Of a stretch of DNA of 15,409 nucleotides, positions 3,190 to 8,047 are shown piece after piece. Under the pieces are notes generated by a model that did no database searches, had not been told where the DNA came from, and worked only from the letters and a program-made list of their open reading frames with translations. The number at the start of each line of letters is the position of its first letter. The stretch's first letter is position 1. The position numbers and the translations under genes are program-made. The stretch is from Oscillospiraceae bacterium (GTDB taxonomy: Bacteria > Bacillota > Clostridia > Oscillospirales > Acutalibacteraceae): NCBI GenBank assembly GCA_009786735.1, contig WQRM01000011.1:1-15409 (forward strand), written 5' to 3'.

Positions 3190-3218
3190 TTGACAACGCA
3201 CATCTTTTGTGCTACAAT
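3190..3218 (+). promoter_or_regulatory. consensus sigma-A promoter of the antitoxin-yibE/F unit
   Basis: A perfect TTGACA (3190-3195) is separated by 17 bp from TACAAT (3213-3218), with an extended -10 TG at 3210-3211. It begins 3 bp after the nrdR stop. This is the closest match to consensus in the window, as expected for a toxin-antitoxin promoter, which is usually repressed by its own antitoxin. A small imperfect palindrome, GCACATCTTTTGTGC (3198-3212), lies in the spacer and could be an operator. Confidence 0.85.
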
Positions 3219-3247
3219 GCATATACTACGACAAAAAGGAGATGTGC

Positions 3248-3517
3248 ATGATGACCACGAACATTAGCCTGCGCATGGACCCCGAACTGAAAAAACAAGC
3301 GGAAGAATTATTCTATGACCTTGGGCTGAACATGTCCACTGCGTTAACCATGTTTTTGCGGCAAGCGGTGCGTAGCCAGGGCATTCCCTTTGAAGTGTCG
3401 CGCACGCCCAATGCCGACACCATGGAAGCTTTGGAAGAAAGCTTGCGCATTGCGCGTGATCCAAACGCCAAAAGTTACCGCAACCTTGACGAACTATTCG
3501 GGGATTTGCGCGCATGA
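3248..3517 (+). CDS. DinJ/RelB-family antitoxin (orphaned)
   Basis: An 89-residue protein with the ribbon-helix-helix N-terminus of the RelB/DinJ family. The strand TTNISLRMD is followed by helices running through KKQAEELFYDLGLNMSTALTMFLRQAV, and IPFEVSR is the typical family hinge. The C-terminal half (EESLRIARDPNAKSYRNLDE) matches the toxin-wrapping tail of DinJ-type antitoxins. Such proteins neutralise a YafQ-type mRNA interferase and repress their own promoter. AAGGAG at 3236-3241 serves ATG 3248; ATG 3251 (MTTNIS) is equally plausible, and ATG 3242 is too close to the SD. The toxin expected immediately downstream survives only as a fragment, so this antitoxin appears to be without its partner and may now act as an autorepressor or against another toxin elsewhere. 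Confidence 0.88.
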   Translation: MMTTNISLRMDPELKKQAEELFYDLGLNMSTALTMFLRQAVRSQGIPFEVSRTPNADTMEALEESLRIARDPNAKSYRNLDELFGDLRA

Positions 3518-3617
3518 AATACACATCCAACCAGATTGGCTGCTGGTGTATCGCATAGAAGAAGACATTCTCGTTCTGGTGCTTTCCAGAACGGGAACGC
3601 GTAGCGATTTGTTTTGA
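3514..3617 (+). pseudogene. 3' remnant of a YafQ-type toxin gene
   Basis: From 3516 one frame reads EIHIQPDWLLVYRIEED and continues to RTGTRSDLF, stopping at TGA 3615-3617. This is the C-terminal third (33 codons) of a YafQ-family mRNA interferase, normally about 90 residues. The conserved HxxPDW block is intact. The histidine expected in the RTGTH segment, a catalytic residue in E. coli YafQ, is Arg. The first roughly 60 codons are missing and the homology starts directly at the antitoxin stop. The ATG at 3514 overlaps that stop (ATGA), as toxin starts often do, but leads after 14 codons to TAG in the wrong frame. A deletion that removed the toxin body is the simplest explanation. No functional toxin can be made. 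Confidence 0.8.
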
Positions 3618-5948: not shown

Positions 5949-6634
5949 GCTACCACACCTTGGCACGTTATTACGACGCCTTCACGCAACAAAACATGGA
6001 CTACAAAAAGCGCACGGAGTTTATCTGTGCGCTGTTGTCTTGTTATGCGAAACCCGAAGACACCGTGCTGGACTTGGCCTGCGGAACAGGGGTGTACTCC
6101 CACGCGCTGTTCGCCCGCGGCTACGATGTCATCGGCGTGGACGCAAGCGCGGACATGCTCGCCGTGGCACGCGAGCGCAACCCGCAGCAGCTGTTGCTGT
6201 GCCAGCGTCTCGAACAGCTTGATCTGTATGGCACCGCCCAAGCCGCCATTTGCCTGACCGACAGCCTCAACCACATCACCAACCCGGTGCACGTGCGGCG
6301 CTTCTTCAAGCGGCTCGCGCTGTTTTTAGAGCCCGGTGCGCCGTTCATCTTCGACATCAACACCCTGCACAAGCACGAGCATGTGCTCGCCAACCACACG
6401 TTTATCTACGAGCATAGCGGCGCGACGCTCGCGTGGCACAACCGCTGGCTGCCCGAGCAACGCATAACCGAAATCACCCTGGACTTCGGCGACGTGACCG
6501 AGCAATTCTGCGAGCGTGTGTACTCGGTGGAAGAACTCACCGCGTGGCTGGGCAAAGCGGGTTTCGCTGTGGAGCGCACCATCCCCGCGCCGGGCGAAGA
6601 AGAGGAAAGATTGTATATCGTATGCAGAAAGTGA
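5945..6634 (+). CDS. class I SAM-dependent methyltransferase
   Basis: A 229-residue protein with the Rossmann-type SAM fold. Motif I is VLDLACGTG (41-49), and Asp66 in GVDAS is the acidic residue that binds the SAM ribose. The post-II strand AICLTDSLNHI and the motif III region GAPFIFDINTL follow. The N-terminus SYHTLARYYDAF is typical of small Firmicutes class I methyltransferases, whose substrates are mostly unknown; this sequence does not show whether it acts on a small molecule, RNA or protein. It overlaps the YerC-like gene by 4 nt and has only a weak SD of its own (AAGGCG, 5938-5943), so translation is probably coupled. A terminator-like hairpin overlaps its stop codon. Confidence 0.88.
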   Translation: MSYHTLARYYDAFTQQNMDYKKRTEFICALLSCYAKPEDTVLDLACGTGVYSHALFARGYDVIGVDASADMLAVARERNPQQLLLCQRLEQLDLYGTAQAAICLTDSLNHITNPVHVRRFFKRLALFLEPGAPFIFDINTLHKHEHVLANHTFIYEHSGATLAWHNRWLPEQRITEITLDFGDVTEQFCERVYSVEELTAWLGKAGFAVERTIPAPGEEEERLYIVCRK

Positions 6635-6652
6635 ACCTTCTGCTGTTTTTTT
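6624..6652 (+). terminator. likely intrinsic terminator of the yerC-methyltransferase unit
   Basis: GCAGAA (6624-6629) pairs with TTCTGC (6638-6643) over an 8-nt loop, followed by TG and seven T (6646-6652). The stem is short with three G-C pairs, so termination may be partial. It overlaps the methyltransferase stop codon. Confidence 0.45.
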
Positions 6653-6657
6653 GCGTC
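6632..6657 (+). promoter_or_regulatory. possible ECF-type promoter upstream of the sigma-factor fusion
   Basis: TGAAC (6632-6636), a 17-bp spacer and CGTC (6654-6657) resemble the general ECF promoter pattern (an AAC-type -35 and a CGT-type -10). ECF sigma factors commonly transcribe their own gene. No sigma-A type promoter was found in the gap. The match is short and could be chance. Confidence 0.3.
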
Positions 6658-6704
6658 TTTATGGGTGAAGTCGATTTCAAATTCAAACATGGCGGGTGGT
6701 GAAC

Positions 6705-7979
6705 ATGGATAGGGACATCTTTGCGCGGCTTTATGCGTCGTGCGAGCCTGCGCTCAAGCGCTTCGTGGTCTTCAAGCTGCCGTCAACAGCCGATGCCGAC
6801 GATGTGCTGCAGGAAGTCGCCATCGCGGCATACAAAAACATGCACGCGGTGAAGAACCCCGAGAGCTTCAAGCCGTGGATTTTGAAAATTGCGGCGAACA
6901 AGTGCAACGATTTTTATCGTGCGATGGCCAAGCGGCACGAAATCCCGTTTGACGAGATGGTGGACACCGTTGTCTCAATGGGGCGCTATGGCATTTCGGA
7001 CACCGAAGTCGTGCGGGACACGCTTGAGGGCATGGCGGACAAAGACAAGCAAATCTTGTTTTTGTTTTACTTCAAGCAAATGCCGCAAGCGCAAATTGCC
7101 GAGCTGCTGGGCATTCCGCTCGGCACTGTCAAGAGCAGGCTGCACACCGCAAAGCAACAGTTCAAGCAGGCTTATCCTTTCCCACACCGCCCAACAAAAG
7201 GAGAAAACACGATGAAAACTTTCCCCAACACAATGCCGGCATACACCATCACGCCGTCCGACCAACCGCCCTTCACCTGCAAGTGGGAGGAAATGATGGG
7301 CTGGTTCATTGTGCCCAAGCTCGGCGAGAGAATCGCGTGGGCGATGTATGACTTCCCGCAGCGCAAGCGCACCCTGCTGTGCACGATGGAAGTCGTTGGT
7401 CCAGCGGCGGTGCATGGCATCGAAGGCGTGGAGATCACCGCGCAGGACAACGACACACCACGCAGCTTCGTCGCGCAACTCACCGACACACACTGCCGCA
7501 TCCTCGCTGAAAGCCACCGCGAAAACGGCGTGAAGAAATTCTTCACCTTCCTCGACGGCGATGATTTTTTGCCCAACTGGGGCTTTGGCGAAAACAACTG
7601 CGGCAACGAAACCAACCTGCACGCGCGCGGCACCGTGACCAAACAAGGCAGCGCATACACCTGCCACGCAGGCAAGCACACGATGGACGTCGTGGGGCGC
7701 TTTTGCGTGGAACTGGGCGAGAAGTCCTACGACACCATCTGCGTGGTGGACAACGAGCTGTATAACTCCGGCGTGTTCAGCGAGCAATACATCGACCAAC
7801 ACGGCAAAACTGTGCTGTGGCGCAGGTTCAACCGCAACAACTGGAACATTGAGCGCTACCGCAAGCGTTATCCCGGCGGCGACCGCTGGAGCGAAATGCT
7901 GCCGAACAATGCGCAAATCACCGTCAACGGCGAAACCTATGTGCACTGGTACGACTGCATCACAGATTATATGCTGTGA
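6705..7979 (+). CDS. ECF-type sigma-70 factor fused to a large uncharacterised C-terminal module
   Basis: A 424-residue protein. Residues 1-160 form an ECF sigma factor. Region 2 contains ADADDVLQEVAIAAYKN and SFKPWILKIAANKCNDFYR. Region 4 has a helix-turn-helix with MPQAQIAELLGIPLGTVKSR (about 126-145; GTVKSRLH 140-147). A short linker (PHRPTKGENT) leads to about 255 further residues that I cannot assign to a family. They have no membrane segment, contain many Trp and Cys, and include blocks MGWFIVPKLGE, GKHTMDVVGRF and HGKTVLWRRFN. C-terminal extensions in other ECF groups control sigma activity in place of an anti-sigma factor. None is encoded nearby, so the module may sense a signal. ATG 6705 was preferred (GGGTGG at 6694-6699); GTG 6696 is an alternative. 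An internal SD-ATG at 7196-7214 could produce the module alone. Confidence 0.85.
   Translation: MDRDIFARLYASCEPALKRFVVFKLPSTADADDVLQEVAIAAYKNMHAVKNPESFKPWILKIAANKCNDFYRAMAKRHEIPFDEMVDTVVSMGRYGISDTEVVRDTLEGMADKDKQILFLFYFKQMPQAQIAELLGIPLGTVKSRLHTAKQQFKQAYPFPHRPTKGENTMKTFPNTMPAYTITPSDQPPFTCKWEEMMGWFIVPKLGERIAWAMYDFPQRKRTLLCTMEVVGPAAVHGIEGVEITAQDNDTPRSFVAQLTDTHCRILAESHRENGVKKFFTFLDGDDFLPNWGFGENNCGNETNLHARGTVTKQGSAYTCHAGKHTMDVVGRFCVELGEKSYDTICVVDNELYNSGVFSEQYIDQHGKTVLWRRFNRNNWNIERYRKRYPGGDRWSEMLPNNAQITVNGETYVHWYDCITDYML
7212..7979 (+). CDS. possible separately translated C-terminal module of the sigma fusion (nested start)
   Basis: AAAAGGAG (7196-7203) lies 8 nt upstream of ATG 7212, in the same frame as the sigma-factor ORF. 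It falls exactly at the boundary between the sigma domain and the C-terminal module. This is as strong as any ribosome binding site in the window and would give a free 255-residue protein. Either the two were once separate overlapping genes and the sigma stop codon was lost, or both a fusion and a free module are made. The nested product is inferred from the sequence only. Confidence 0.45.
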   Translation: MKTFPNTMPAYTITPSDQPPFTCKWEEMMGWFIVPKLGERIAWAMYDFPQRKRTLLCTMEVVGPAAVHGIEGVEITAQDNDTPRSFVAQLTDTHCRILAESHRENGVKKFFTFLDGDDFLPNWGFGENNCGNETNLHARGTVTKQGSAYTCHAGKHTMDVVGRFCVELGEKSYDTICVVDNELYNSGVFSEQYIDQHGKTVLWRRFNRNNWNIERYRKRYPGGDRWSEMLPNNAQITVNGETYVHWYDCITDYML

Positions 7980-7993
7980 GCAAGACTTCGTGC

Positions 7994-8022
7994 TTGCATT
8001 TAAACGATAAGTGTGCTATACT
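7994..8022 (+). promoter_or_regulatory. promoter of the metG-tatD-DUF4932-rluA operon
   Basis: TTGCAT (7994-7999), a 17-bp spacer and TATACT (8017-8022), with TG at 8014-8015 making an extended -10. Transcription would start near 8029, leaving a leader of only about 30 nt, too short for a T-box riboswitch. The -10 box is part of one arm of a hairpin (8012-8037). Confidence 0.7.
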
Positions 8023-8047
8023 ATAGAGTATAGCGCATTTTTATTTT
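8012..8047 (+). terminator. intrinsic terminator of the sigma-fusion gene, overlapping the metG promoter
   Basis: TGTGCTATACT (8012-8022) pairs with AGTATAGCGCA (8027-8037) around ATAG, 11 bp with one G-U pair. TTTTTATTTT (8038-8047) follows. Transcripts coming from the sigma-fusion gene would fold it fully; transcripts from the metG promoter start inside it. Confidence 0.6.

Follow-up and report, generated by a model that had tools for sequence, protein, structure and literature searches.

Does the open reading frame (ORF) at positions 6705–7979 of this 15,409-nucleotide stretch from an Oscillospiraceae bacterium (contig WQRM01000011.1; hereafter the window) yield one protein or two, and what does the sigma factor that it encodes serve? 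The frame lies on the forward (+) strand, as do the parts of the gene, its promoter, the palindrome and the terminator-like hairpin after the gene given below. ORF and Pfam scans describe its product as a 424-residue fusion of an extracytoplasmic function (ECF) sigma factor, a linker and a C-terminal module. We take ATG 6705 as the start; the ORF listing program begins the same frame at GTG 6696. Sigma region 2 occupies residues 9–73 (6729–6923; PF04542, Sigma70_r2, E 2.4e-11) and sigma region 4 residues 102–152 (7008–7160; PF08281, Sigma70_r4_2, E 1.1e-12), and the NCBIfam model TIGR02937 scores 82.4 bits on the protein against a cut-off of 42.9. With sigma-70 regions 2 and 4 only, the gene is by its sequence a member of the ECF family. 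The linker (7173–7211) varies in peptide sequence among relatives, and in the fusion model residues 162–170 have a pLDDT below 50. Within the linker lies an internal Shine-Dalgarno (SD) sequence, AAAAGGAG (7196–7203), conserved in relatives, and ATG 7212 follows as residue 170, in frame with the sigma ORF. The remaining 255 residues (7212–7979) form an inner ORF with its own start, whose free product would be a second protein. The comparisons below indicate that this one gene very probably makes both the fusion and the free module.

The initial annotation, made from the letters of the DNA, had read the ORF, both sigma regions, the internal SD and the in-frame ATG exactly as they are given here, and had recognised no named family in the module; Pfam and NCBIfam, and likewise PHROGs and PADLOC, return no match to it. 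For the SD and ATG at the domain boundary it had offered two explanations, a recent fusion of two neighbouring genes or a single gene with two products. The first falls away when the relatives are compared, and the second is strongly favoured by the nucleotide conservation of the SD and ATG. Among 94 loci, including the window, a sigma match lies upstream of the module in 91, and 85 of these 91 are fused in one open frame. The other six are single-stop or degraded fusions: L010, L023 and L078 are whole apart from one stop each; the degraded ones are L090, L091 and L094, of which L091 and L094 are one place. Three loci have no sigma match, of which L092 and L093 are fragments and L037 is the sole stand-alone module among the 94; the latter lies downstream of a gene that looks Fic-type when its translation is read by eye. 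The fusion, judged from these sequences, is old and not recent. Protein searches agree with this picture. With the module as query, 3873 candidates yield 3653 clusters of proteins at E up to 0.001, an uncharacterised family, and most of the 120 matches listed are 410–480 residues long with sigma domains; five of the 120 are 261–268 residues long without them, three of these from contigs of about 1 kb. Fused versions therefore prevail in the comparison of fused and split forms that the initial annotation had proposed, and truly split versions look rare. The six loci without an intact sigma part plus module (L037 and L090–L094) were dropped, and 88 were used for the inner-start and promoter tests. 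In these genes the linker, counted from a VKS motif to the ATG, is mostly 25–28 codons long, with a few longer.

Both the SD and the start codon of the inner start are conserved at the nucleotide level. The boundary codon is ATG in 87 of the 88 loci and TTG in one; GGAG stands near it in 74 and AAAGGAG in 66, and in 72 the first G of GGAG is placed exactly 12 nt upstream of that codon. Synonymous resampling of codons gives AAAGGAG in a mean of 11.7 loci (maximum 23 in 1000 draws), compared to the 66 observed. The glycine codon within the SD is GGA in 72 of the 73 loci with a glycine there (17.2 expected from the same ORFs), and the lysine codon is AAA in 74 of 76 (41.9 expected). Comparison of glycine columns served as a control for relatedness: among the 23 alignment columns that contain 50 glycines or more, GGA makes up 96% (74/77) of the SD column, 42% of the next column and 24% in the median. 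The window itself has 26 glycine codons in the ORF, and the one in the SD is the only GGA (GGC 22, GGG 2, GGT 1). When the 88 loci are clustered at 75% identity, GGAG is present in at least one member of 34 of the 39 clusters and in all members of 32. Thus, the relatives do not keep the fusion while losing the internal SD, an outcome that the initial annotation would have counted against two products.

The boundary also differs from its surroundings in structure and in pairing energy. The mRNA there is open: in the median of 22 loci, about 97% of windows are more strongly folded, and the mean folding energy is -5.1 kcal/mol compared to -12.3 kcal/mol for random windows. Across the 88 loci, the SD duplex energy has a median of -9.0 at the boundary; for ATGs elsewhere the medians are -2.9 (661 in frame) and -2.1 (1135 out of frame). 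Two points count against leaning on these duplex energies. To define the boundary start, the in-frame ATGs at most 10 codons from the expected place were compared and the one with the best SD was taken; the controls had no such choice, and this rule favours the boundary somewhat. Moreover, a coding-driven WEE motif inside the module, TGGGAGGAA, equals or beats the boundary SD in energy. Because the start was chosen by its SD and the WEE motif scores as well, SD energy alone is no proof, and the case for the inner start rests on codon choice instead.

Remoter relatives extend the pattern. In a search of the order, 47 further loci were examined, and GGAG lies at 12 nt in 37 of the 43 high-scoring ones; these loci are not independent, since several are earlier loci again (for example, L210 is L002 and L200 is L075). 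Of 24 rows that this search gave without a locus, leaving out the window itself and five fragments, 18 were taken as new loci, mostly lower-scoring and not all unlike each other. GGAG is found 12 nt before the ATG in 10 of them and at 9–14 nt in 14; the SD sites at the boundary are weaker in L215, L219, L229 and L230. L215 and L216 represent a sister family with the same layout and about 26% module identity, and the L216 module has no Pfam match. This sister family comprises 214 protein clusters among 425 candidates, with 120 listed, and a methionine stands at the boundary, after K-G-R-x-x, in all 17 fused proteins read (20 fetched); its DNA at the boundary was seen in L215 and L216. In the nearly identical loci L213 and L214, a relative of the module is fused to a different DNA-binding domain, a Mor-like helix-turn-helix (HTH) of the CD3324 family (NF040785, E 8e-25), and AAGGAG and an ATG are again found at the joint. 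AAGGAG thus occurs in three codon phases, mostly as AAA-GGA-G, as GAA-AGG-AGT in L216 and as AAG-GAG in L213 and L214, and a peptide motif therefore cannot explain the SD.

These observations bear on the possibility that only the fusion matters, the conserved SD being a translational pause or a linker motif and the ATG being hardly used. K-G-E-x-x-M could indeed be read as a peptide motif as well, and coding alone does produce SD-like sites, as the WEE motif illustrates; set against this are the choice of GGA in 72 of 73 glycine codons, the methionine in 87 of 88 loci, the SD in three codon phases, the open mRNA structure and the low confidence of the linker in the model. We regard this explanation as very improbable.

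The gene also carries a promoter that was absent from the initial annotation, together with the palindrome described below. In the window, the promoter spans 6632–6661 and consists of a -35 element, TGAACCTTC (6632–6640), and, 13 nt past it, a -10 element, CGTCTTTA (6654–6661; consensus CGWCTATA). The TGA of the -35 element also serves as stop codon for the methyltransferase gene that lies upstream, and a terminator-like hairpin with a T run (6624–6643) overlaps the -35 element. The ECF-type pattern TGAACCTTT-N13-CGWCTATA is matched upstream of the gene at no fewer than 13 of 17 positions in 84 of the 88 loci, with a spacer of 13 nt in the best match of each of these 84, and at all 17 positions in 54. 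The other four loci score 11–12 of 17, which is the level of chance; a contig end is perhaps the cause for some. By sequence, then, this is an ECF gene with a conserved ECF-type promoter before itself, as for autoregulated ECF genes. L213 and L214 lack such a promoter (their best matches reach 11 and 10 of 17 positions), which suggests that it belongs with the sigma part.

In the usual description, an ECF sigma factor switches genes located elsewhere. Here, ten genomes searched with reversed patterns as controls show no surplus of such promoters once the gene's own is set aside. The window's own genome has two matches with at most two mismatches, the exact one being the gene's own promoter, compared to 10 for the control. 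Nine genomes contain 11 matches to a strict pattern, six of them own promoters and five others (control 15), and 15 matches to a core pattern, seven own and eight others (control 20). In 391 genomes of the class, a pattern search yields 12 matches in 11 genomes, with none for the control: five are own promoters, one belongs to a remnant of the gene (L180), one precedes another ECF gene (in genome G255) and five lie elsewhere. Four of the latter five were inspected; two stand before genes for exported-looking proteins and two are probably chance. Since the promoter is conserved, sites are not in surplus and none is found at the CD3324-module genes, we infer that the sigma factor acts on its own promoter and on hardly anything else. 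Two limits weigh on this claim: the pattern was strict, so that it also missed some own promoters, and the window genome is 70.6% complete.

A palindrome adjoins the promoter. In the window it is the imperfect TGAAGTCGATTTCA (6666–6679), near the expected start site, and across loci a site like TGAAANCGNTTTYA lies directly past the -10 element; in 72 of the 88 loci its centre is 19 nt away from the first -10 base, and in 71 the central bases are CG. Among 39 representatives, the ±2 pair is complementary in 30, by four different pairs (11.3 expected), and the ±4 pair in 32 (24.1 expected), values as high as these being reached in none of 2000 shuffles; the ±3, ±5 and ±6 pairs are not above shuffles (129, 186 and 572 of 2000 reach them). 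Across 775,434 bases of 95 loci, inspection by eye places the palindrome only at these promoters, except for one coding site in L032 that appears on both strands. The exact sequence TGAAACCGGTTTYA is present at the gene's own promoter in four of nine genomes, with one further exact site, which in G255 precedes another ECF gene. At that locus (L130, G255:C78:23827), an exact palindrome, TGAAACCGGTTTTA, follows right after the -10 element (CGTATTAT) of a different ECF sigma gene, which is succeeded by another ORF, perhaps its anti-sigma factor. Given this exact copy, ECF promoters in these bacteria may carry the palindrome more widely.

The form of the palindrome offers a clue to its role. A 5' RNA hairpin is disfavoured, because the covarying ±2 pair would close a loop of only 2 nt; for the same reason a double-stranded DNA site fits better. 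As outlined in previous analyses of LacI-family regulators, a central CG is the rule for their motifs (1173 of 1303 factors; PMC4052901), and their sites combine this CG with a variable pair placed symmetrically around it (PMC4052901, PMC2978694). The palindrome, even in length, with a central CG and a covarying ±2 pair, fits a LacI-type operator in form, which suggests a repressor of the LacI/CcpA type as the candidate binder; no binder was found. A protein that binds this start-site palindrome would add a second layer of control, a proposal to which we give slightly less than even weight.

Considering these results together, we propose, with moderate confidence, a single-gene regulatory unit with two products that transcribes itself, its module sensing when fused and acting or buffering when free. 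RNA polymerase carrying this ECF sigma factor would transcribe the gene from TGAACCTTT-N13-CGWCTATA, as the conserved promoter implies, and ribosomes would make the sigma-module fusion from ATG 6705 and, by separate initiation at the SD in the linker, the free module from ATG 7212. Transcription from its own promoter combined with two translation starts is the part of the proposal in which we have considerable confidence. The fused module may then bind a ligand and set the activity of the sigma part, replacing an anti-sigma factor; here we see the chances as evenly balanced. No neighbour recurs in the flanks of the 88 loci (up to 5 kb, often shorter), where the largest neighbour cluster, ABC ATPases as judged by eye, covers 12; a conserved operon partner was considered and rejected on this basis. 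A cognate anti-sigma gene next door was not found in these flanks either, as the initial annotation had noted for the window, and it is unneeded for ECF groups with C-terminal extensions. The accompanying idea that the module is the sensor remains plausible only, although it gains from the relative fused to a different DNA-binding domain: a portable sensor module would fit the CD3324 HTH fusion, again with an inner start.

As the searches brought up no further clear target promoter, the gene's own products may be the output. More speculatively, a signal would turn on the fusion, the fusion would raise the level of the module, and the free module would bind, alter or buffer the same ligand and so end the response; we consider this step less likely than not. 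The related, broader claim, that the own gene is the only natural target of this ECF sigma factor and that the whole response consists of its two translation products, is somewhat easier to entertain, yet still tentative. If it is true, such a self-only unit would be orthogonal to the other promoters of the host, would need no neighbours and would be spread patchily through gut Clostridia.

The free module could have other roles. It might be a structural partner in a hetero-oligomer with the fusion, needed for folding or inhibition and not for ligand buffering. By analogy, Cas11 of type I CRISPR, as described in PMC10212523, arises from a start inside the gene for the large subunit, both products here seem to be selected and a ligand would be unnecessary; this explanation, which leaves the absence of another clear target promoter unaccounted for, appears rather unlikely to us. 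It is less likely again that the free module acts in trans as a soluble anti-sigma factor, which would bind the sigma part or compete with the fused module and give negative feedback. We retain the self-transcribing unit, with a module that would sense when fused and act or buffer when free, as the working proposal.

A weak Pfam scan of 64 module members gives scattered matches only (best E 0.014), a sequence search of the PDB has no match better than E 0.48, and Foldseek with the predicted model returns nothing at E up to 0.001. SnoaL is absent by sequence: at E up to 1, Pfam matches it neither to the window module nor to the 64 members. The predicted fold is nearly all-β, with a possible resemblance to open barrels such as those of LolA, LprG, RseB and VioE. 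Cys177 and Cys249 are invariant in the 64 members and Cys130 is nearly so; when remote relatives are added, none of the three stays invariant. Literature searches found no publication on this family, with the main ECF reclassification paper, which may describe its sigma group, outside their coverage.

The distribution is patchy in gut Clostridia. A genome scan found 275 loci, of which the best 80 were kept. The module is present in 13 of 391 genomes of a class sample (four of the 13 partial), in 49 of 394 genomes and 34 of 169 genera of an order sample (some as fragments) and in 3 of 398 genomes of a phylum sample, counts that include the window's own genome. Seven of the nine genomes of the window's own family listed in the class sample have no module match. 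A class search with a wider alignment matched 14 of 371 genomes and revealed no new layout there. G802 and G1033 each carry two sigma-module genes, and G862 and G899 each carry one sigma-module and one CD3324-module gene. The gene is also lost by decay, as in L180 (G325:C10), where the promoter and the start of the sigma part are kept and an internal deletion leads straight into the last module residues; L180 and L175 are both gene remnants with the promoter left.

Patchy presence, the lack of fixed neighbours and these promoter-bearing remnants are what would be expected of a selfish cassette, a self-transcribing gene that spreads or decays as one piece and does little good to its host. A mobile-element or phage origin was nevertheless rejected, as plasmid and phage searches gave no module match and none of the 28 and 6 pattern matches in viral contigs was confirmed. 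Moreover, the module retains many invariant residues across the main family, which suggests a useful activity. The cassette explanation is accordingly improbable in our view, and the single-gene regulatory unit is preferred.

In the window, a methyltransferase gene lies upstream of the gene and a methionyl-tRNA synthetase gene downstream. A hairpin resembling an intrinsic terminator lies 3' of the gene (8009–8040) and is weak evidence on its own, the region having three terminator-like sites compared to 1.8 expected; by a crude rule, terminators follow the gene in 37 of 88 loci only, and one is therefore not a defining part. Elsewhere in the window (3209–3617), a RelB-type antitoxin gene (PF04221) is followed in another frame by a C-terminal piece of a YafQ toxin (PF15738, profile positions 55–87 of 88), which looks like a toxin remnant beside an intact antitoxin.

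If the proposal is true, this gene would be a minimal one-gene sense-and-respond unit, easily moved and host-orthogonal, and thus a possible genetic part. The single-gene layout appears, from the sequences compared, to recur in many gut bacteria. It also provides strong comparative support for the conservation of in-frame inner starts in bacteria; annotation, with its single product per frame, overlooks such starts.

Among known systems, the closest are ECF groups with a regulatory C-terminal extension, described in a review (PMC8999054). They share with the window protein regions 2 and 4, a fused C-terminal domain, the lack of an anti-sigma gene and control that is probably exerted within the protein. 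The window protein differs in that its extension is 255 residues long, nearly all-β in the model and of no named family that we found, and in having an inner start for the module and no clear target promoter found beyond its own. ECF41 and ECF56 carry a SnoaL extension, to which the module has no match by sequence, the only level of this comparison. ECF238 (CorE) has a C-terminal Cys-rich metal-binding domain; the residues to compare are Cys177 and Cys249, invariant in the 64 members, and Cys130, nearly so, none of which is invariant with remote relatives included. ECF262 (SFB89493.1, Ruminococcus albus) is an extension group whose mechanism is classed under "others" in the table of the same review; the host is of a similar kind, and the window protein may belong to this group. 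The CD3324-family protein (NF040785) differs in its DNA-binding domain and lacks an ECF promoter of this kind upstream, while in two genomes its HTH is joined to a module relative with AAGGAG and ATG between them. Finally, Cas11 of type I CRISPR is an unrelated protein and a structural subunit in its own system, but as described in PMC10212523 it offers a parallel in layout, in that an in-frame inner start gives rise to a separate C-terminal protein.
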